Positions 1 to 63,311 of a stretch of 64,000 nt of DNA are shown piece after piece (positions within the stretch are counted from its first letter, which is position 1; each line of letters begins with the position of its first letter). The notes under the pieces are model-generated. The model was not told where the DNA came from and ran no database searches. It saw only the letters and a program-made list of their open reading frames with translations. Source of the DNA: Glandiceps talaboti (taxonomy: Eukaryota > Hemichordata > Enteropneusta > Spengelidae); assembly GCF_964340395.1 (NCBI RefSeq), contig NC_135563.1, forward strand, positions 23,638,309-23,702,308. The letters are read 5' to 3'. Made by a program: the position numbers and the translations under genes.

Positions 1-290
1 CCTACAGGAAGATATCATAAAATTTCTACTTAAAAACGTGTATTTATTTCATCAACGTTCAATTTTATTCCTAACACAAATTTGAAAATTGTTACCTAAA
101 ATTATTGACTGCACACTTCTTTGTCAACAATTTGACCCACTAATGCACTATTCAAAACATGTGATGATATTTTTTAATATTCAGAAATCATAAAACAACA
201 AATAAAGAGTGACAGAAAGCCTCAGGCTGACAGACAAACAAAATTTGTCATTTTCACTTTGGTTAAAACTACATGTGGCATTTGACTTGC

Positions 291-3200
291 CTTCTTCAAT
301 CTCCCCAACATCTTCATCTACCCCTCTTTTCACAACTCTTGGTCGTACATGACTATCAGGAGTAGTACCCCATTCATCAGCCTGACTACTAGGTCTAAAA
401 TGAACTATGACATTAGGATTATGCATAACCACTGTCTCTGCATCAGGGAATTCCAAACGACGATGCCATGCGTTGTTTGTCACAGCAATTTGATATTCTT
501 CCTGCAAATATAGTAAAAAACACAAAGCCCGGCAAATTGTCAAACTGTTCATTGATGAGGTTGTAATTTCAATCAGAATTCTTTCTGAATCATATCAACC
601 AATTTTCCTGAAAATCACATAAAAACTCTCAAAACAATGCCTATGAAATCTTGTTCCCAGTCATTTTGAAATAATAAAAAAACCCTTAGGGTTTCACCGC
701 CGACCATAAATGTAATATGGTCCCTGTCAGGACCTAGACTATCGGCAGCCATATTGGGTTCTAAAATGACTAAATTTTAATATCATTTTGACTTCTAATT
801 CAAAATCTGCACATTAACCCAAGTTTTTTTTTGGTTTGAACTGAGAATAGGTCTGAAGTTTCTTGGACAAAGTTACAGGAAAAGTTTGAGATCTCTATTT
901 CCAACTTGTGTCTTACCTCTAACTTTTCAGCAAATACTTCATTATATGGCACAAATTTGTTATCACCATCACCTTTGTAAAACCATGTACACCTTCGGAC
1001 CTCAGATGGTTTTTCCTCCCAGTAAATAGCATTACGTATACGTCTTGTTATGTTGACATCATAACGTCCACCATCAGTCTGAACAATACATTCTTCAGGA
1101 TCTTGTTGTACTGTGTAATGAAAACATTGTACAAGATTAGAACCACAGTATCAAACAACAACAAAGTCATTCTTTCAGTTTTTTAATGGAGACACAATTG
1201 TACTAGTATGTACTAGACTACATCATGTATATTAGTATTTGGAGTTGTTTTGTTATGAAAAAATGAACTTGACCTATACTGGTCACTTTGGTCTTACCCT
1301 TAATTTAAATCTGCAGTTGTATATTGTTAACAAATTCTTTTAAACATGTCCTCAATTCTGTTAAAAATATCAACATGTCAAAACTGACACATAATTGATG
1401 ATGAAACAAAACTGTTTTCGAGGCATAAACAAATTGTTATTTATAGTCTCCAAATTCCCCACACCAGTTCCTTTCATTGACCTTACCTGTGGTCCTTGTC
1501 TCCTCCAACTTCAGTGAATCAAGCATAGTAAATGGAGTCCACACAAATCTCTGTTCTATTTCCCTACAGTAGAACCAGTGTGCCTGTACAGGTTGGTACA
1601 ACATTTGTGGGCCTTCCACCCCTGTACTTGGAGATGCTGCTTGCATCGTTTGAAGATCAGCTGACGTTGGTGGTGGCTTGCTTGGATCAAACTTCAATAG
1701 TATAAATAGAACAGAAGTACATATTACTACTGGTATTAGCCTGATCACAGTGCTTTTATTACTATGTTTAGTTCTGATGAAACTCAAATGCAAGAAAGGG
1801 AACAAAATACAACATATTATGAAGGAAATTAGGCAGTCCTCTTAAACCAGACCTTCCACAGCATGCTTGAACTTGACAATATAAATATTACAATTATAGA
1901 AAGCTAGATCTTAAAAATTGTTTTCTAAGAAAGCCATACTTTTGAACTGAATTACTACTGAGACTATTTCAATATTATTTCATCAAACATAACTATGGAT
2001 AAACCATAAACCCCGGCGTGAGGAGGGTCTATGGATAAATGTACTTTGCACAACCAAATGTTCCAAAAGTTACCCATCCCACATCCCAATGCATGAAAAA
2101 CATAAGTTAACTTTGTGTACCTGAGGCCTTGGTGCAAATCCTGTAGTTGGTGGTGGTGCAGCAGGAGTGGTTTGCAGTGGTACATGTTGTTGTGGATACG
2201 ACATTGGTGGTCTTGTAGGTGTTGATGCATATCTAGCTTGTTCATGCGTTGGTGGTGGAGGTTGTCTTGGTGTCTGTTGTTGTGGTGGTTGTTGTCTGTA
2301 ATGTGACTGTGGGCTTGCCACTGATGGTGGTGGTGGCTGCAATGGTGGTTGGTGCTGTTGGTGGCCAATGTTTGCAAATGGGTCTGAATGTGAGGGTGCT
2401 GTCTGCTGCTGAAAGAATGAGAAGGAGCCTTGTTGTTGCTGCTGCTGTGGATCTACCATAGGTACTGAATCATTCTGACCAAGAAAACTGTCTGCTTCTC
2501 CCTCTTCTGTAAAACAAATGAAGATAAGTTTGCAAATAAACTTAATAAATTTTTCTGAATTCCCTAAGTATTTCACAGAGGTTCCCTCCCAAAATTAAGG
2601 TCCATAGTACACAGATATCAATTCATCTGTATGGTGAACCACTGTATCAAAGTATAACATCTCTTCCAAACACAAACTTGTAATTGAAAATTTCATGTAA
2701 AACTTTTCAAGTTTGTGTTTGGAACAAAAAAATTACTTTAATACAATATGAATATTTATTAATGCAAGTTTTACCAGAATTCCTTTCTCTGTTAATAAAA
2801 TCACAAAACATTGGCACCCCACTGTACACTTTCATTGCATAGTGGTAGACTTTTATACAAAATATGAATTAGTACATGAAATTTAACAGCTGGTCATTTC
2901 CAACAATTTTCAACAAAAAATCTTAGTACCAATATAAAAGTTTTTGCTCAATACTACAGATCGGCACAGGCAGAGTTTTTAATATATTACTTTTGATGTT
3001 GTCATGACATACAGCTAACAAGTATTTAAAGTTTATGGACTGTTTCAAGTACACAATAGTAAGATAAATTTATACGTAGACAGTGGTGAGAAAGCTGAAA
3101 GGTAAACTCCAGAGGATTTGGTTTAAAGGACCAGTTCAGATTAGGATTAAAATTTAGGTGTAGAAGACAGTTATCTGGCAGAGTTATACAAATAAATTAA

Positions 3201-7300: not shown

Positions 7301-10300
7301 TCCTGGGTCCAGGACTAGCGATTTTTTTGGGCGGACCACACAAATTTTACCTTGTCTGGTCCGTCGGACCATCTATTTTTATACCTCCATGGTCGGACCA
7401 GTACCTTACTGTTAATGACTATGTTAAAAAGTCCTCTGAATACACAGATTCATAGGCAAGATTTAATGCTTCACATTAGCGCGACCTGGGACCACTAATT
7501 CTTTCAGCAGGACCACTAGATTTTTTAAGGCACTGGTCTGGGGACCACCAGTTCACAAAATGAGTTGTTCACCCCTGGATCTTGATAAGGTGATAAACAT
7601 TTATGTCTAATGTGAGATACAGTGCTGGGTTTCTGGGTAGTATTTTGATGTGTTTACAATCATCTCAGTAAACAGGTTCATAAGGTTGGAACTTCATGTT
7701 TACAATCATGTTTTTACATTGCATCAATCAGAGTGGTGTGACTACTAAAATTTTCATCATGGTTTACATCATATATATAAATGTGTGATGTGGCACTTGT
7801 GAATGTTTGTTTTGGTGGAGAGGGGAGGGTTTTATGTTCATTTATTGAGCTTGTGCGACATAGTGCGATCAACCCTTACTTATAATTTGTTATGTGTTCA
7901 TTTACATACACACAGCATAATTTGTTATCGGTGTGAGTTTTTGATAAAGTTCAAGGAAAAAAGAAAAAAAACAGACAAGAAATCTGGTAAAACTTCTATT
8001 GATATACTTGTACTGTACCATAATTTTGGCAGAGAACCCTAGTATTAATACTGTTGGAACTCGCATAGGCTGAAAGGCCCAGGATTCAATCCCAGGTTTT
8101 CGCTATAGTGCTTACTTAAAGTGAATCTACATACAGATAGGATCTAATCATTTTATTGTTCAGGACCATCTTTTCTATAGATCTGCCAGGCACCAATTTT
8201 AACATCCACATTATAAATCTTCATCTGGCATGGCAATGACTTTTCATGTCAGTGAAGTGTTTGTTTTCCTTAGCCCACTGTAAGCATTCTCCAGTGATTG
8301 TAAAGCTAGGGCAACACCTTCAACATCCTATTCCACTGTCAGACAGAAGAGAAGTCTAGACAATGATGAACAAACAAACACAGAGTCAGAGGGCACAGAA
8401 GTTACCATGGAAACTGAAGGACAAACATCAGAGACCAAGAGATCAAGGACAGAGGAAGGCAGTGGTGTGTCACCCCCTGTAACTCCTGATTTGAATTTTC
8501 CACTGCCAGGTGAAACCGGTCCGGCATGTCTTGTAAAAGTAAGAGCCTGTGTATTCAGTGTATACAGAAGAATATTTCATGTTTTCCTTTTACTCTTATA
8601 TTGTTTTACAATCTTTCTGAAAAGATAAAATGTTGAATATTAGTAAGTTCGTTCGTTGTTTCTGGCTTTTCATTTATTTACCACTCACATCAGAATTGAT
8701 ATCAACAGAATGGATAATTCTGAAATCTATTTCTGAATTCAATGAAAATTTGAGATTTCCAGTAAAAGAACTAAAAATATGTATTGTTATTGATTTTTTT
8801 ATTGTTGTTTCTCGTCTCTGTAGGTTTATGAAAATTTTGATAATTTTCGTGTAAATGATGTCATTGAGTTCATTGGTGTGCTATCAGTGGATCCAGCATT
8901 AGCAACAGCCACTCAACAACCACTGTAAGTTTTTATTTTATAATATTTTATGGAAAGAAATTGTCTTTCTCTTTTCAAATACTACAATTCTAACAGTGCA
9001 GGACATGAACTTAATGTTATGACTATTTCCTATGTACCTTCTTCAGAGAAACATCGCCATTTGTAGATCCGAGTGATGCTATGGAAGGCGTAGAAGAACG
9101 ACATGCCCACTCCCCACCTCCATCACTAGTACCAAGGTTACATGCTATAGTAGTCAATAAACTACAACATTGTAATCCATTACTTCCACAAAATCTCCAC
9201 TCTGAAGAACACCAAACAGGTATGAAGTGTTTTATACCCCAATTCAAGTTTACCGTTCACTGGCTCTGTTTGATACAACCATGCAGAAACCAATAAGAAA
9301 CTGTACAGCTACACTTTAAGATAGTAAGAATGGATGAATAGTTTCTTGAGATATTTTGAAATGAACAGACCTGCCGCCATGCAGACGTCAAAACAAAGGC
9401 ATCTGGTGTTTAGTTGCAGTACTAAATGTAGCTGGAAATTGCAATCCTGCTATCTCAGTGTAGAGTATGCAGTTTCTAATTGGTTTCTGTATGGTTTTAT
9501 GAAACAGAGTCAGTGAACATTAAGAAACTGGCCGTAACAAACTTTCAATGACTACATGTGTATCGTTCAGTCAGATCTAGTGTGGACACTGATGAAGGAC
9601 AAGTGATTTGATCAAAATATCAAATTTGTGTTTCCCAAAGGTTAATCCAATTGGAATGCTTTACAGATTTCCCCCATCTGTTACCATGGTTCCCAAACCT
9701 TTTTATTAGAAACTGTCTTGCATTATTTTGAACTTGATTTGCTAGTACGTCTGCTATGACACATTAGAACTGCAACTGTTGTTTGCCTACTACTTTCTGC
9801 TGATGTGAGTAGTGAGACATGTCTACACTTATCTACGTACTGAGATATTTCTCTGTATTTTTATAGTCATCCAAAGTGTTTTATCAGAGGCTGCATCTGT
9901 AAGGCAAGATTTAATAGCAATGTTACAACAAGCCTTATTTGGTGATAGCCTGGCTGCAGAGTATCTGTTACTTCATCTTGTCTCATCAGTGTAAGTATAC
10001 AGACAACAAACATTTTATCTTCTTGGAAACAATCAAATAGAACTCTTATTGGAATATTCCAGTCACATACTGCAGTATTCTTGTAAGAATTATCACACGA
10101 CTGATGAGGCACTAGAGTTTAGAAAATATATTAAATGTGCAAAGCTTTTGTCATGGACACCAATCACATCACAGTCATTGAAATGTGTTGAAATCAAGTT
10201 CATGAGTTCCATCAAAACAGAAACGTGCATGGATGTTTTGACTAGCCGAGAATGTCATTCACTTTAGATTTGGAACAGTGAGATATAATGCTTTTCACAG

Positions 10301-16773: not shown

Positions 16774-19700
16774 TCATAGTTTAAGTTGTACTGGTAAGGA
16801 GTATTCACCAGGTCTTCCCCAGTAATCAACAGCTCGGACTCTGTAGAAACCTGTAATAGTGGATGTCATAGGATCTGAAACAAAAAAAGATGACAAAACA
16901 GTCATTATAGCTACTAAATAAAAATGGCTGTGACCAGATTGACATATTAATATCAATAGTGTACAACTAAAAAACCTATCACACTATCAAACTAACATAC
17001 TAGACTAGTATATTCCCTTACATTGTACTAGAAAGTCATCTCCTTATCACACTATCAAACTAACATATATTCCCTTACATTGTACTAGAAAGTCTTCAGT
17101 TCTTAACACACTATCAAACTAACATATATTCCCTTACAAGGTCACAGCACACAGCAGAATCATAACATTTTGACATAAAATCTTGTTTTGAGTATGATCT
17201 TTATTTTACAGGGTACACAGAAATGACAAGAGGACTTGATACCCATGTTTGTTCAGAGAGAACACTACACATATCTTTCTTTCAAAACAAATGTACATCT
17301 TGTCATCATTTGCCCAGTTTTGGTGTTTGTATGCAAGGGTCAGAGAGGTAGATAATTTATTTGTTAAACATAAAAAACTTCATTGATTGAAAAGACAGGA
17401 TTATATATAATATCTGAAAACACGACCTTATGACCTTTGACACAGTAAATTACATCACTAATACTTACCTACACTGTTATTTTCTGGGGAGAAAAAATAC
17501 GAAGTAAAAATCAAATCAACATCATTTATCCTCTGATATGGACCCTGAGAACTTTTAGATGAAAATTCCACTTCAAAAGTTTTAAGGCATTTAGAGTTGA
17601 CACAGCCATCATCCCAAATAATCAAGACCTCATCTTTGGTAATGTTATGTAGTCTTACACCAGTTGTCTATGTGAAGGAAAGGGAAGAAAACTGACTTAG
17701 ATTAATTAATTGATTTTATTTGGCAAAAACAATTTGGAAAACCACAAACTATTAAAAGTGCATATACAATATGACAGCTATCACATTCGCAGGAAAGACA
17801 AAACAGACACATCATTGAATACATTTGCCAAGGATGACACAAAACAGTTTTAACAACTTATTTAAAAATGTCTGACTTGTTTAACTTAAAAATTTTTGCC
17901 TTTTAAGATTTTTTTTTTTAAATCAGTTTTCTTGGAATGCACTACATTACTATTTAAGTATTAAATTTAAAAGTGAGAAATATGAAATTTCCCCCCTCAA
18001 AAAAAGTTATTGGTTTTGGAAAATGCAAACAGACACTGAAAATGATATTTTGGTACATCAAATCATTTTGTTCCATGGCTTTTAATAACCAGCGCAAGTT
18101 CTGAAATGTTAGGCTACATCAACTTGGTACTCATATGTGCTGTAGAAAACACCCAAATGTTGCTGTAGACAGAAATTATTCTTCACTTAATATGCCATCA
18201 CCCTCACCTGGTCTGGTTGAACATCTGGTTTCTGACAAACATGAACCAACAGAACTCCTGGCATATTCAATGTCATTTTCATACTAGCTGTACTTGGTGT
18301 GATTGGTTTGGGATCTTGGATTCTGACTAGCTCCTAAACATGGAAAGAAGTGAGGGTCAGTACATGGCAAACCCTTTGACAGACCCTATATTTCATTGGA
18401 TGGTATACTAACAAGGTCAGTGTATGGCAAACCCTTTGACAGACACTATATTTCATTGGATGGTATACTAACAAGGTCAGTGTATGGCAAACCCTTTGAC
18501 AGACACCATATTTCATTGGATGGTATACTAACAAAATCAAATTTTTACAACTCTGGAATGGCTGAATTCCTAGTAATGGTTATCACTATGACTGCTAAGT
18601 CTATCATTCAATTTAGAAATATGTACATGTACATTCAAAGTTCAGGTTGAATACAACAGGAAAGTTTGGGTAGATAACATGTTTATATGACAACTATTAA
18701 AATTAGTAGAGAATGGGCTAACACATCAATTGTAATTGTAAAATAGCCAATTCATTGACCAAATAATGTAACTTGTAGATAAATAGAATTCCTTTCCTTA
18801 GGCTTAGGTATAGCATAAAGTCCTTGACACTTTCACTCTGAACACAATGTAAATTAGTAACATCTGTATCACATCGCATCAAAGTTTGTTTCTGATAACT
18901 TCTGGCATAATCCCTTCCTTCCTTCTTTACCTGTTCTCTTCTTAACCTTCTAAATTGTTCTTTTGTTGGGAAAATGGGTTTGCCCATATTTTCCCATAAT
19001 GCACTTGGGTTACCAGTTTGGTTATCAATCAAATATACAGCATAGATTAGATTATCTGAAACAAATAAAAATGATGTACAAAATTGTTCTGAATATACAG
19101 CATAGAAATTATAATGACAGATGAAAAATTTTTCAAAATATGTACTATGTAACAGATTATCAGATAAGCCAACGTTAGGTTTAGGTTCTGTGTCTATTTT
19201 TATGCTCTGCAATATGAATAATGTCAAATTTTTTAAAAATATTTTTGCAATGTTTAGACATTCAAAAACAGTTTGTACAAAAACAAGTTGTCACGCATTT
19301 CATGGGGATAGAAAAAGAGGGTGAAAACAAGACTTCGGTGAAGATGCTGTCTACGCCAGTTTGAATTTCCCACATTTGTACAGAATAGCAGACAATGTAT
19401 AAGACAATTGGATGCAAGTTACCTGTATTCCTTTCTTGTATTTTCTCAAAAAGTTTAAAATTTAAAATCAGATTATCTTGTCCAAAAGTATGAGTTGTAT
19501 CATCACTATTATAAATAAGTACTGCTACTTGCCAACTGGATAAAGACAAGAATAAGAAAGTGATATTAAATAGAAAAGACAAAAATAATAACATAACTGA
19601 TAAAATGTACTTGTGTGTAAATACTGCAGTAAAGCTGTTTACACACTAATTATATTCTTTGTGCTCATAGTATTGTACTTTGTTTAATAATGGCATGAAA

Positions 19701-19920
19701 TGAAGATTAATTTGCAAACTGATAGTCCTACCATGACAAAAGGACAAATGAGAGATGGACTGACTGATAAACACAGACAAACACAGAGATATGTATATGT
19801 CATACACATGCACATACACATACATACACACACATACATACACACATATATACATACATACGTACGTGTACATACATACATACATACATACATACATACA
19901 TACATACATACATACATACA

Positions 19921-19952
<32 letters not shown>

Positions 19953-19986
19953 AACATACATGCATACATACAGACAGACACATACA

Positions 19987-20049
<63 letters not shown>

Positions 20050-23000
20050 CAGACAGACAGAGACAGAGACAAGAATACTAATTTACCTATCAGCTGTGCC
20101 ATTGATTGTTGGTATGTGTTCAGATGCAATTACTCCAACATTACTATCATTGCTAACAACTGATCCATTCACTATGAACACAAACATAATGAGATTTAAA
20201 TAAGTAAACAGATAACATCTTAATAATTCACACATGGTGTAAACTTCATAAATATGTCTTCTATTCTAATAAATGCATCTTCTATTCTGAGAACTCAAAA
20301 AAACCACCTCAATTTGGTATAATTTTATATATCAATTCAGAATTGAATGAAATAAACTTGTTGATATATAGCTTGTGTGTGACTCTTATATTTTTAGTGT
20401 ATGTTTTCAACATTGGGATAACTATCTTTTTGGGGCTATTCAGAGATGAAACATATAGGACATGAATGATTGAACAAACTTTGTAAAGTTTTAGTGGTTT
20501 TCATTTCTATAGTAATGAGAAAGCATACAGTTACAACTAGTGGTAACAGAATGGGAATTTTAGGGCCTAATTTAGACTGTACCAAAGTCGTTGGTGGCGC
20601 TATATAGGTGCACTCTAGAGTATGGGAGTGTCACCAACCATAGACGTTGGATTCTAACGCACTAACTTTATATTCTAGCCCTACCTCCTTACCTGTGACT
20701 TCAGCTTGTAGCTGTTTCTCTCCAAGCAATGCTAGTAGACCCATCACATTCAGGACAGGTTTCTTGACAAACTGTACACTTCTTGGTGTAGTATTGTTCA
20801 TTTGAAATCTGGCAAGCAGGGTTCTTTCATCAAAGAAATGAGGATTAAAATTCATAAATCCATTGTCATTACTCAGAAGTGCATAGTTGATGGCATTGCC
20901 TGGCTTACTGAGAACCTGATTTTGATGTTGACCTATGACCTGGTGAAAGGAAAAAGAAACTGAAAGTTTGCATTTTACTTAATATGGCTGGCACCAACTT
21001 AGAGCTTTGAAAATAAAACAAAGACCACAAGACCAAAGTGTTTATAGACCACATTGTAATATTAATAAAATATCTCTTACAGGAAATGATATAAATTTAT
21101 AAATACCTTGGCAACTACAGCAGCATATCTAGCATCTGCTCGCCAATCTTCACCTTTACTCCAGCCGACTAGGGGGTCAGCTTCACTGCCATGGAAACAT
21201 AAATAAATAGTTCAACATAAGGAGTGTTTTTAACTATCTAGAATTCATATTTGTGTCACACTACAGTCAACAAAACATAATTTATGAATTTGAAAATAAT
21301 CCAGATACTGAAGAAAATTTTGCTTTGACTTGATAAATTAAACAACTAATAAAACTTTAAAGAATTATAAATATGAAAATATCATATGACTAAAACAGAT
21401 ATGCTAATTACACTGAATACGGAAATATCCCATGACTAACAAATATGCTAATAGCATCATGAATATGCAAATATTTGAAATAACAAAGACTGCATCTGCA
21501 AGATCAACAACATATTAAGAAAGATGCATTCTGTTTACATCGACTGGCTACGTGTATAATCATAGACATTGGAGAGAGATCTATAATATAATTAAGTCAA
21601 TATGTGCCACTACAAAGCTCCATTCACAAAAACTGAACATTAAAAAAAAAATCTGCTTACTCATTATAGAATGGTAGATGAGCTAACTTTGGGTGTTTTC
21701 TTTGCATTCTTTGAATAGTTTCTAATTCTGTATCTAATATGTATGTTGATGACCCTTCACCCTGAAATCGAACAATAATAGGTACTCATTTTACGTTGGC
21801 TTCTCAAAAATTATAACGAAAGAATTTGAAATATAACATTTAGGTACTTTCTGTGAAGACATTCATTTGTGTTCATAGGTTGCTGGCTTCTTGAAACATG
21901 TAGTGTTCCCTGCCAAAAATAATAGTATGTTCAGTTTGGACATGTATTATAAACATAGATATTTTCACCACCAGAAAATGTTGCAATTTTACAATCTTAA
22001 TCTCGTAGAATGAATATACTTTTTTATAACAATGAATGTCTGCAATTACAATATAAACATTTACCTTATGATGTATAGCTATAAAGTCTAATCTAACCCC
22101 AGTTTCACCAGTGAAGTAGTTTTGACCACTTTCACAATGTTCCAGTAGTGTCCAGCAAATTGGTGATTTGGGTGGATCTTTACATCCACCTCCTGGACCA
22201 CCAAAGGTCAATAATGGACTTGCAGCTTTCAAACCCTCAGAACATGCATCATAGTAATTCAGAAATCCTGAAAATGTATATGAAGAATAACATTGTAGAA
22301 TTTATGATTGAGTGAGAACAGATATATTAACATTAATTGAACTTATTTTGAATGTCTAGGCAGGGATCTAAATTGCACTGAAATATGAATATATTAAGTA
22401 GAAGTATTTTTTTTTTTTTTTTTATGCTGAAAGTTGATACTTAAGGTTTATGAAGAATAACAAGTTGATATTAAGTTTTGTGAATTGCAATGATATACAA
22501 CCGTTTGTAATACTGGTATATGTAATTATATGAGGTTATTACCTGGTATCACCTCATTGTTCGTCATATCACCACAAATGCCATTTCGGCAGCGTGACAC
22601 TCAAAATTTGACTTTTGACAAAAAATTTCAAACTTTGACTACCTTGTGTTGTAAAATGGATGTCGTCAAAATCATGCGAATCAGGCTCATTCCATGTCTC
22701 AAAGTTCCATTGAAATACATAACCAAGGCCATACTGATCTGATGAGTAAAAACAATGAATAATAAAGTTACCTTGTATTGTAATATCCAAATCATCAAAG
22801 TCATGGTGGTCTGGTTCATTCCAAGTTTCAAAATTCCACTGTTGTACATACTCTAAACCATATTGACCTGGCAATGAATGAATGAATGAATGAATGAATG
22901 AATGAATGAATGAATGCAACAATGTATAAAGCCTGAGTGTTGATTTCACCCTTTTCTTACCATGATACCATGACTAGTAGACTTGAGGTGAATCCCATAT

Positions 23001-25927
23001 TGTGGGTTAGCTTATCCTTAATAGAAGACATGGCATATATGTTGATTTAAACTATAGTTTGTAACATAACAATTTGACAAGAGTGTTGGATAAATCACTG
23101 CACTATTTCACTTAAAGATAACATTATACATCTCTGTAAGTGACAAGATTGTTTTAATTTCCAAACAAAGAAATGGAGGCAAACTTACCAATATATCGGG
23201 TAGCTAATTCTGTTAGCATACACAGACTTACCAATATATCAGGTAGCTAATTCTGTTAGCATTGACAGACTTACCAATATATTGGGTAGCTAATTCTGTT
23301 ACCATAGACAGACTTACCAATATATAGCGGGTAGCTAATTCTGTTAGCATAGACAGACTTACCAATATATCGAGTAGCTAATTCTGTTAGCATACACAGA
23401 CTTACCAATATATGGGGTAGCTAATTCTGTTAGCATACACAGACTTACCAATATATCGGGTAGCTAATTCTGTTAGCATACACAGACTTACCAATATATC
23501 GGGTAGCTAATTCTGTTACCATACACAGACTTACCAATATATCGGGTAGCTAATTCTGTTAGCATACACAGACTTACCAATATATCGGGTAGCTAATTCT
23601 GTTACAATACACAGACTTACCACTATATGGGGTAGCTAATTCTGTTAGCATACACAGACTTACCAATATATCGGGTAGCTAATTCTGTTAGCATACACAG
23701 ACTTACCAATATATCGGGTAACTAATTCTGTTAGCATACACAAACTTACCACTATATGGGGTAGCTAATTCTGTTAGCATACACAGACTTACCAATATAT
23801 CGGGTAGCTAATTCTGTTACCATATTCTTCCATTCTCTGACTTGTGAACCATCATCAAATGAGCTGAAATAACTGGACGGATTACCCATAATCTCAAATC
23901 CAGGTCTTAATCCATTCTGCCACAACAGATTAATAAGTTGATCCAGTAGTTCATAATGATATGTGATTGTACCATTTCCTTTTCTGAATGGGTAATAAAA
24001 GGACAGACTGGTAAATGTTGACATAGCGCATCATCACTGAGCAGGTTTATTTTCCACTCAAATTACCATATCAATATTTATTTTTTAACTACATCAAAAG
24101 ATGTCATCATTTAATAGTTAATAAAAAACAAGAAAACATACTTTTTAGGGATTTTCAGGTTACCATCCACAGACACTACCAGATGAGCTAGTATTTTTTA
24201 CCCTGAAGAAGGAAATTTGTGTATTGCCGAAACGTTGGTACTAATAAAGATTGTCTGAAGATTGTAGTAACTGATTGAGTACATCCATCATTTTCACCCA
24301 ACATTTAGGGATAGTTACTGCCTAGTTTGGGATACTATGCTCCCCAGGGAGTTGAAGTTATATTATTCTGCATGGGTCGGTGCCAGGGGTAATAACATCT
24401 AAAATGTGCCAGGGGTAATAACATCTAAAATGCTATGATTATGACATTATTTGTGGCGGTGTCAAATGATCATTATTCCTACATGTGTTAATATCATTAT
24501 TACAGTTGGATCATTTCCTGAATAAATAACAGAATAATTCAAGCAAAAAGTAGGATTAAGTTCTAAATTCTAGAAACTTACGTGAGAGTGACCATATCCA
24601 GTAACCAGTGTATTCTGACTTGCTCAATTCCATTGTGAGGAACAGATCCTATGTACGCTAAATTCTGGACTTCATCCTCACTCAGAAAGTATTTGGAGTC
24701 CTCCTGATGGGGTTGAGGGGGACTGAGAACACAAAATTTAAAGTATGAATGTCATGAAGTAGTGTGTTAGAAAATGTGGATATTAACCCTTGGAAAAGCA
24801 TTTACTTTAGGTCTAACTAAAAAATGGTATGGTTCTGATTACGCTCAATTTTAGAATAGGTGGGGTAGGTAGATTTTTTATGTTATTTTATTATATTTTT
24901 TTTTCTTTGCGAGTGTCAAGTTTAGGTTTTCTATTATTTTCCAAATTCTTTCTGTGTTGTTTATTTCTTCCTATCAGATGTACAGCCATAATTTTACAGA
25001 CAGGAAGAACTTTTTTTAAAGTTGATGTCAGTTTCCGCATCCACTAATTTTTGTAAGACTTTACAGTTTTTTAGATTTTATTACTTTTTTCTTGAAATTG
25101 AAAAATAAAAAAGTTTAATGTTGGCAGTGAAAAGCTAGGTGGGGTTGAGTAATCAGAACCAAACAATTATTTTTTTAGGACTTATGACTCTATTGATGAC
25201 GAGTCTATTACCACTCTACAAGAGATCATTTTAATTTTATCCAAGGTATTATATAAAGTGTAAATGACAAATGAAAATTCCTACTCAAAGTCCAAAAAAA
25301 TCCCAATTTTTGCTGACATTGTACACCCCTGATGATGATACTGGTGGGATGTTTATACTATAGCAAAATTTAGTATTCACTTCCAAAGATGCATTGTATA
25401 TCAAATTTAACCAATATGAAAAACACAATTTATAATTAGCTTGCTATTCATTTCTTTTAACATTCAAATATTTGAAACCGTGCCGCTAGAAAAATAACAA
25501 ATACATACAGAATCAAATATTTTATACAATCCTGTAGTTTTTTCCTGATTTTTGTTTTTGGACCCCGTTACTTTCATACTGTAGTATTTTGTTCCTATAC
25601 TCACTGTCAATTTCCGGACTTCGACACGCCCTCAATACAGTCAGTGCTCTCCTGAAGGTTTACTTTCAATTGCATATCTAAAACGTATCTGAACGTAATT
25701 TCAACGTGCAATTCAGAGAATTTGATCACTAAATATACTTACCAAAAGCCCGTACTTTTCCAAAAATGCGTTAAATTTGAAACAGTATTGCCGTGTACTG
25801 TAATGTTGTATGTTTTCGTCGAACATGCGAAATGGACCACAGGAAGACAAGTGCACAACACGAGAAAGAGTTTTATAAACATTAATGGTGTTTTCAAAGT
25901 TGACATAATGTTCAGCAAAGTCGCCAT
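16774..25927 (-). CDS. IDUA: Alpha-L-iduronidase (glycoside hydrolase family 39), complete
   Basis: Coding exons in transcript order: 25743-25927, 24582-24722, 23793-23983, 22772-22867 or 22643-22738 (alternative), 22065-22267, 21661-21761, 21107-21185, 20693-20939, 20087-20171, 19423-19535, 18931-19055, 18208-18333, 17469-17667, 16774-16874 (TGA 16774-16776). They join in phase to 663 aa (human 653). A hydrophobic signal ([16 protein letters not shown]) leads to lysosomal/secretory entry. Motifs: [50 protein letters not shown] (acid/base Glu about 190, equivalent to human 182), [22 protein letters not shown] (nucleophile Glu about 307, equivalent to human 299), [44 protein letters not shown], and the C-terminal fibronectin-like [14 protein letters not shown]. 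It removes terminal iduronate from dermatan and heparan sulfate. Confidence 0.96.
16978..17140. repeat. Three-copy ~60-bp tandem repeat in IDUA intron 13
   Basis: The block CACACTATCAAACTAACATA recurs near 16979, 17047 and 17106, each followed by TATTCCCTTACA. Confidence 0.85.
18356..18536. repeat. 60-bp tandem repeat, three copies, IDUA intron 11
   Basis: GTCAGTGTATGGCAAACCCT plus TTGACAGACACTATATTTCA and GGATGGTATACTAACAA repeats three times at exactly 60 bp. Reading frames on both strands here are repeat artefacts. Confidence 0.95.
19801..20050. repeat. (TACA)n microsatellite next to IDUA exon 9 donor
   Basis: About 250 bp of CATA/TACA units with a few interruptions, ending some 37 bp downstream (in transcript sense) of the exon 9 splice donor. 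The apparent Cys-Met-Tyr-Val proteins here are translations of the microsatellite. Confidence 0.97.
22643..22738 (-). other. IDUA: IDUA alternative exon 4, distal copy (4a)
   Basis: 96-nt exon, phase 1 in and phase 1 out, with acceptor TCATCAG and donor GTAGTC. It encodes [20 protein letters not shown] followed by [12 protein letters not shown]. The catalytic Glu of WNEPD is kept but the next residue pattern is D-S-H instead of D-H-H. It is 24/32 identical in protein to the proximal copy (22772-22867). Confidence 0.88.
22772..22867 (-). other. IDUA: IDUA alternative exon 4, proximal copy (4b)
   Basis: 96-nt exon, phase 1 in and out, with acceptor TTGCCAG and donor GTAACT. It encodes [20 protein letters not shown] followed by [12 protein letters not shown], the form closest to human (NEPDHHDFD). 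Only 33 bp (22739-22771) separate it from copy 4a. Confidence 0.92.
22871..22917. repeat. (TGAA)n microsatellite beside IDUA exon 4b acceptor
   Basis: About eleven TGAA units starting four bases upstream (transcript sense) of the exon 4b acceptor, in the place usually held by the polypyrimidine tract (TTCA repeats in the transcript). Confidence 0.93.
23176..23830 (-). repeat. IDUA: 43-bp minisatellite made of IDUA exon 3 end plus its splice donor
   Basis: Fifteen copies with donor starts spaced 43 bp (one spacing 45): the complement of GGTAAGT lies at 23183, 23226, 23269, 23312, 23357, 23400, 23443, 23486, 23529, 23572, 23615, 23658, 23701, 23744 and 23787. The last is the genuine donor of exon 3 (exon end 23793). 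Each unit repeats the exon sequence for TELATRYI and the intact GTAAGT, so the intron carries fourteen extra perfect 5' splice sites. Confidence 0.95.
24807..25183 (+). mobile_element. MITE family A, copy 2 (IDUA intron 1)
   Basis: Shares TGATTACGCTCAATTTTAGA, GTCAGTTTCCGCATCCACTA and the inverted tips GGTTCTGATTAC / GTAATCAGAACC with the copies at 11836-12225 and 61487-61836. Confidence 0.75.

Positions 25928-28423: not shown

Positions 28424-35580
<7,157 letters not shown>

Positions 35581-44278: not shown

Positions 44279-63311
<19,033 letters not shown>

Follow-up and report, generated by a model that had tools for sequence, protein, structure and literature searches.

Tandem copies of the exon for the catalytic acid/base segment in an enteropneust alpha-L-iduronidase gene, predicted to be mutually exclusive

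When the exon for part of an active site is duplicated and the copies are swapped, one gene has a direct route to two specificities. In ketohexokinase, exon 3 has a tandem arrangement. The ketohexokinase splice isoforms A and C differ in their substrate affinities (PMC11332825), and the tandem pairs of NALCN, exons 15a/15b and 31a/31b, have been shown by cDNA and occur in many phyla (PMC3557258). In alpha-tropomyosin and in exons 4a/4b of OGDH, neighbouring exons are made exclusive by the distance between a donor and a branch point (PMC7969005), and potential steric interference has been reported for 57 human exon clusters, or 9% (PMC5740500). Here we describe a pair predicted to be of this kind in the gene for alpha-L-iduronidase (IDUA) of the enteropneust Glandiceps talaboti, within a stretch of 64,000 nucleotides that we call the window and whose first letter is position 1. 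We think it probable that the two exons, 4b and 4a, arose when one IDUA exon was duplicated in tandem long ago and have been kept as mutually exclusive alternatives. The original prediction had named them probably mutually exclusive; the tandem arrangement, the coding character of both copies, their constraint over most of their history and a geometry that should block their joining are now supported, while exclusivity itself is still predicted from the DNA.

By its geometry the pair very likely belongs to a known class, in which neighbouring duplicate exons are too crowded to be used together. As described for alpha-tropomyosin and OGDH, the exons are duplicated neighbours of the same phase, with a branch point that here is predicted to be too near the upstream donor. 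Those genes, however, have a longer intervening intron and a branch point unusually far from its acceptor, whereas the IDUA gap is only 33 nt, so that any branch point within it, at the placement predicted here, would be too close. With the human steric clusters the pair shares a predicted class, defined by a donor and a branch point less than 50 nt apart. NALCN is likewise a case, in invertebrates, of a tandem exon pair that swaps a key residue of a functional centre, but there the pair changes the selectivity filter of a channel, whereas IDUA is an enzyme. Ketohexokinase is, like IDUA, a carbohydrate enzyme with splice isoforms, although not a glycosidase. The human clusters are backed by RNA reads and the kinetics of ketohexokinase were measured, whereas the IDUA pair is known, and its class predicted, from sequence alone. 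Human alpha-L-iduronidase (PDB 3w81 and other entries) has the orthologous fold and catalytic segment, and apparently a single copy of the exon. We found no mutually exclusive exons reported for IDUA in searches of an open-access library; PMC9146820 uses the phrase in a general sense.

The iduronidase gene and its duplicated exon

The gene encodes an intact alpha-L-iduronidase of family GH39. It is on the minus strand; its ATG is at 25927, and its stop ends at 16774. With either 4b or 4a the product has 663 residues and a single, terminal stop; the form with both copies is open over 695 residues, and the form with neither over 631. The features that matter most for the argument are these.

16774..25927, minus strand: full coding extent of the IDUA gene, in 15 exons with 4b and 4a counted separately
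23793..23983, minus strand: exon 3, the upstream common exon, 191 nt, ending in phase 1
22772..22867, minus strand: exon 4b, the proximal copy, 96 nt, with His at the place of human His185; 43.9 bits on its own in Pfam
22739..22771, minus strand: gap between 4b and 4a, 33 nt, GTAACT...CATCAG, holding the 4b donor and the 4a acceptor
22643..22738, minus strand: exon 4a, the distal copy, 96 nt, with Ser at the place of human His185; 37.1 bits on its own in Pfam
22065..22267, minus strand: exon 5, the downstream common exon, 203 nt, starting in phase 1

Exons 1 to 8 match the human IDUA chain 3w81 with 498.6 bits (E 1e-148) when 4b is used and with 490.5 bits (E 3.9e-146) when 4a is used, the match covering residues 52-413 of their product, and the exon 4 segment aligns to human IDUA without a gap with either copy. 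An 11-residue segment around the nucleophile Glu also aligns to its human counterpart, and we take one letter of that segment to correspond to Glu299. Human Glu299 is named as the nucleophile in PMC10794756.

Exons 4b and 4a are both phase 1-1, and each has an AG acceptor and a GT donor. They are identical at 68 of 96 nucleotides and, counting the split first codon, at 24 of 32 residues, and each carries the NEP motif with the catalytic acid/base Glu, aligned to the human NEP. The eight residue differences, given as 4b/4a, are G/D, E/G, Q/F, H/S, L/I, D/H, I/F and I/T, and the change from His to Ser lies two residues past the P of NEP. Since each exon alone exceeds the curated cut-off of 26 bits for Pfam Glyco_hydro_39, their similarity is not chance; their flanks are unrelated to each other. 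The two exons are tandem duplicates of one IDUA exon, both coding. Recounting and alignment to the human protein agree with the original prediction on the coordinates of two adjacent 96-nt exons, their phases and intact splice sites, the 32-residue versions with 24 identities and the NEP Glu in both; the differences it had picked out (D-H-H to D-S-H, Q/F, D/H and I/T) are all among the eight.

For the human gene, we take an exon boundary to lie at c.590 and exon 5 to be 96 nt long. The splice positions c.494 and c.793 are given for human IDUA (PMC6805319), and the span from 494 to 792, 299 nt, equals the 96 + 203 nt of exons 4 and 5 here. That human IDUA has one exon at this point, as had been supposed, agrees with the primer table of the same source, which has a single exon 5.

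We searched the genome assembly (590 Mb in 47 contigs) for other members of the family and obtained seven matches, six of them inside the IDUA gene. The lone match outside is an exon 5 fragment, and the 1.5 kb upstream of it hold no exon 4; a paralogue with the same exon pair was not found in the assembly. The fragment lies with the start of the following intron on another contig (L003, G000:C2:30583064-30583264), has its donor GT changed to GC, and adjoins a dispersed sequence; inspection by eye places the latter in the window too, at 24833-25160 near exon 2. The acceptor of exon 12 was placed at 18334, and the intron before that exon contains a 60-bp unit three times, with 91-95% identity (window 18355-18539).

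Constraint on the copies and the active-site difference

Of the 32 codons, 11 are identical between 4b and 4a; another 13 show only silent differences, and the other 8 encode different residues. A dN/dS comparison of the copies, put forward with the original prediction as a check, gives dN 0.19 with dS saturated by NG86, and dN 0.16 with dS 27 by maximum likelihood in Biopython. Silent sites are thus saturated while the protein has been kept, which argues for constraint on both copies over most of their history. Under simulated neutral drift to 26-30 differences, eight or fewer residue changes occurred in 0 of 42,877 and 0 of 43,035 kept simulations. In a second set of simulations, with constraint on both copies, the best fit was at T 80, where a fraction of 0.39 of 1500 runs came near the observed counts. 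When one copy was constrained throughout and the other released for at least a quarter of the time, at most 0.4% of runs fitted at T 60 and T 80: at T 80, release for 20 of 80 steps fitted in 0.3%, and release for all 80 in none. This second set, which assumes an omega of 0.08, supersedes a half-neutral set that was not rate-matched, in which 6-10 free changes left eight or fewer residue changes and no stop in 48-68% of runs, and in at most 0.07% when at least 13 silent codons were required as well. A fully unconstrained copy is ruled out by the drift and release simulations. A recent tandem duplicate or allele collapse is ruled out by the saturated silent sites.

A short free tail at the end of the simulated history behaves differently from a long release. 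At T 60, a tail of 2 in 60 steps gives a fit of 0.24, against 0.23 under continued constraint, and at T 80 a tail of 4 in 80 steps gives 0.24, against 0.39. Judging from these fits, both copies appear to have functioned as exons through most of a long history, and a short recent release of one fits nearly as well. The fitting simulations would put the age of the pair at 0.6-0.8 neutral changes per site per branch, and at that age the pair is expected in related species as well.

The compatibility of the simulations with a short terminal release bears on a reading in which 4b is the sole exon in real use and 4a an old alternative, lately disused and splicing-competent on paper only. Exon 4a has the lower scores against both Pfam and human IDUA, and it has lost the human-type Gly of the split codon and His185, the two places at which 4a differs from human and 4b does not. 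Its donor is also the weaker one: in a rough weight matrix built on human frequencies, the 4b donor (AAG/GTAACT) scores 8.4 and the 4a donor (AAG/GTAGTC) 4.5, although donors about as weak occur in the same gene at exon 6 (4.1) and exon 7 (5.4). Yet 4a has no stop or frameshift, keeps its GT and AG and retains NEP and its neighbours, and a long release is rejected by the simulations. Moreover, its changes fall largely on family-variable places, since 4b itself departs from human at 10 of the 32 positions and these include 6 of the 8 differences (hypergeometric P 0.005). We regard recent disuse of 4a as unlikely.

If both copies are in use, as we favour, the strength of their splice sites may say something of how the choice is made. 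The branch and pyrimidine region of the 4b acceptor is occupied by a simple repeat.

22872..22916, minus strand: (TTCA)n microsatellite upstream of the 4b acceptor, each unit holding one yUnAy-type motif

Taken together, the donor scores and the (TTCA)n acceptor suggest that 4b may be the default and 4a the regulated choice. The length of the repeat may vary among individuals and affect exon choice.

The main active-site difference between the two isoforms is the His or Ser at the place of human His185, which of the eight is the one near bound substrate. For human His185, no contact is listed in the iduronate crystal complex; a single contact of 3.5 A is given to docked dermatan tetrasaccharide, and one of 2.9 A to the methylumbelliferyl group of 4-MUI (PMC10794756). 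These contacts suggest that the residue sits at the rim of the iduronate pocket, on the leaving-group side. A Ser is aligned here in the bacterial orthologue 5ndx, whose chain reads Gln for the acid/base Glu, in one alignment and close to a three-residue gap. With a Ser in 5ndx, it is plausible that the Ser form is compatible with a working enzyme, and a change of substrate preference between the isoforms, as raised in the original prediction, is possible, with indirect support from the docking contacts and this Ser. A search for bacterial relatives by sequence pattern matched 12 stretches, none of which was a relative.

It is also conceivable that 4a is used but yields an isoform that is nearly or wholly inactive as an iduronidase; the switch would then tune the amount of enzyme and not its specificity. 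This would fit the replacement of His185, eight changes beside the active site, and docking that assigns substrate contacts to His185 (PMC10794756). The catalytic N-E-P is retained in 4a, however, and the Ser that 5ndx aligns at the His185 place also speaks against it, within the limits of one alignment near a gap of three residues. We consider an inactive 4a isoform quite improbable.

Under mutually exclusive use of two working exons, either choice would yield a full enzyme with the catalytic Glu, and the isoforms would differ at eight residues. They might then differ in their preference for what follows iduronate, and the choice of exon may be regulated. We tentatively propose, as a possibility well short of the duplication and exclusive use themselves, that one gene here supplies two iduronidases, a His185 and a Ser185 form, which would differ in preference for the sugar or sulfation beside iduronate, with the choice hard-wired by the gap. 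Loss of IDUA in humans causes mucopolysaccharidosis I, and if the Ser form works, it would reveal the role of the His185 place.

Gap geometry and mutual exclusion

The stretch from a branch point to its acceptor is normally free of AG. The last AG before the 4a acceptor is the AG that ends exon 4b, so the AG-free branch zone of 4a is the 33-nt gap alone. Counted from the 4b donor, the yUnAy-type adenines in the gap lie at 9, 16, 25 and 29 nt. A candidate 4a branch point is therefore at most ~29 nt from that donor, below the limit of about 50 nt between donor and branch point given in two sources (PMC7969005; PMC5740500); an estimated minimum of 52 nt has also been given (PMC6692369). With candidate branch points too near the 4b donor, joining of 4b to 4a should be sterically blocked, and the original argument from gap geometry is supported. 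The gap also offers a clean natural case for the limit between donor and branch point.

The gap is also far shorter than the shortest (167 nt) of 72 other introns measured or estimated in this genome, which bears out the claim that it is shorter than ordinary introns. The 13 other introns of the IDUA gene are all at least 167 nt, and 32 chaperonin and 27 kinesin introns are estimated at no less than 200 nt and 246 nt, respectively, from the ends of matches, some of which hold stops and within any one of which a bridged short intron would escape. The chaperonin survey yielded 33 gaps, one of which, of 78 nt, was left out because both its matches share one 609-residue open frame. For the kinesins, 47 of 143 matches were taken, picked by eye from apparently single-copy genes, and these gave the 27 gaps. 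A hard lower limit is called into question by human introns of 43 and 49 nt that have been reported as spliced, although these are G-rich (PMC8363638), unlike the gap, with its 3 G of 33.

We propose that the branch point of 4a must sit in the 33-nt gap, which would be too near the 4b donor for joint use. The spliceosome would pair exon 3 with 4b and then 4b with exon 5, removing introns of 925 and 504 nt, or alternatively pair exon 3 with 4a and then 4a with exon 5, removing introns of 1054 and 375 nt; it would never pair 4b with 4a. Mutual exclusion can also be of an RNA-structure type, with competing selector and docking helices. Folding of the RNA over the pair (361 nt) revealed nothing special (z -0.46, with 33 of 100 shuffles folding equally well), and over this stretch no candidate other than geometry emerged for what might govern exon choice.

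Joint inclusion would leave the reading frame open, 96 nt being a multiple of three; the locus has no frame-breaking safeguard, and the class does not require one. Because the gap is itself a multiple of three and without a stop in the exon frame, 4b, gap and 4a form one open frame of 225 nt. Both copies could on these grounds be included, with the 33 nt spliced out or the 225 nt kept whole, to give a product with 32 or 43 extra residues and a repeated strand-loop. Against this, the gap has perfect splice signals at each end, and as an intron it would fall below all 72 sampled. Furthermore, the gap-free alignment matches the exon to a single core segment of the barrel, which should leave no room for a second copy; duplication of a barrel core strand had been raised as an objection from the start. 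We judge joint inclusion very improbable.

An assembly artefact, for example two alleles placed side by side, is scarcely credible: nearby local tandem repeats might trouble assembly, but the copies differ by 29% of nucleotides with silent sites almost saturated, and their flanks are unrelated and not allele-like.

Other observations in the window and genome

The end of exon 3 and its donor (TTG/GTAAGT) are repeated as a 43-bp minisatellite at window 23188-23835. The true donor is at 23792, and 14 further GGTAAG donors lie downstream in the intron; in test joins the first alone keeps the frame, and the 14 longer forms hit a stop at one shared codon. Elsewhere, the window contains coding stretches for a WWE domain (184-1150, minus strand), an MCM-binding protein (8284-9293, plus strand), a ligand-gated ion channel (33626-34801, plus strand) and a reverse transcriptase (61021-61335, plus strand).

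The kinesin family is multicopy and tandem. Its motor exons (positions 245-320) recur with near-equal scores on contigs C22, C23, C9, C11, C18, C15 and others of the assembly (G000), and the copies on C22 and C23 are ~1.8-2 kb apart. The chaperonin-like frame of 609 residues, at G000:C17:3793519-3795189, is seemingly intronless, and its relatives differ in this.

The mitochondrial contig (G000:C40; L011, L012) has 51,222 bases and three cox1 copies spaced 15,435 bases apart, and is therefore apparently a tandem assembly of one mitochondrial genome. Its tRNA and cox order is vertebrate-like. Mitochondrial ATA occurs at places whose usual residue we take to be Ile or Val, and cox1 is without AAA. 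Taken by themselves, these features of the contig point to hemichordates or echinoderms. Counting against hemichordates, the cob gene lies between atp6 and cox3; in two hemichordates cob is described beside nd5 (PMC2697986), and changes of the mitochondrial code are described in the same source.
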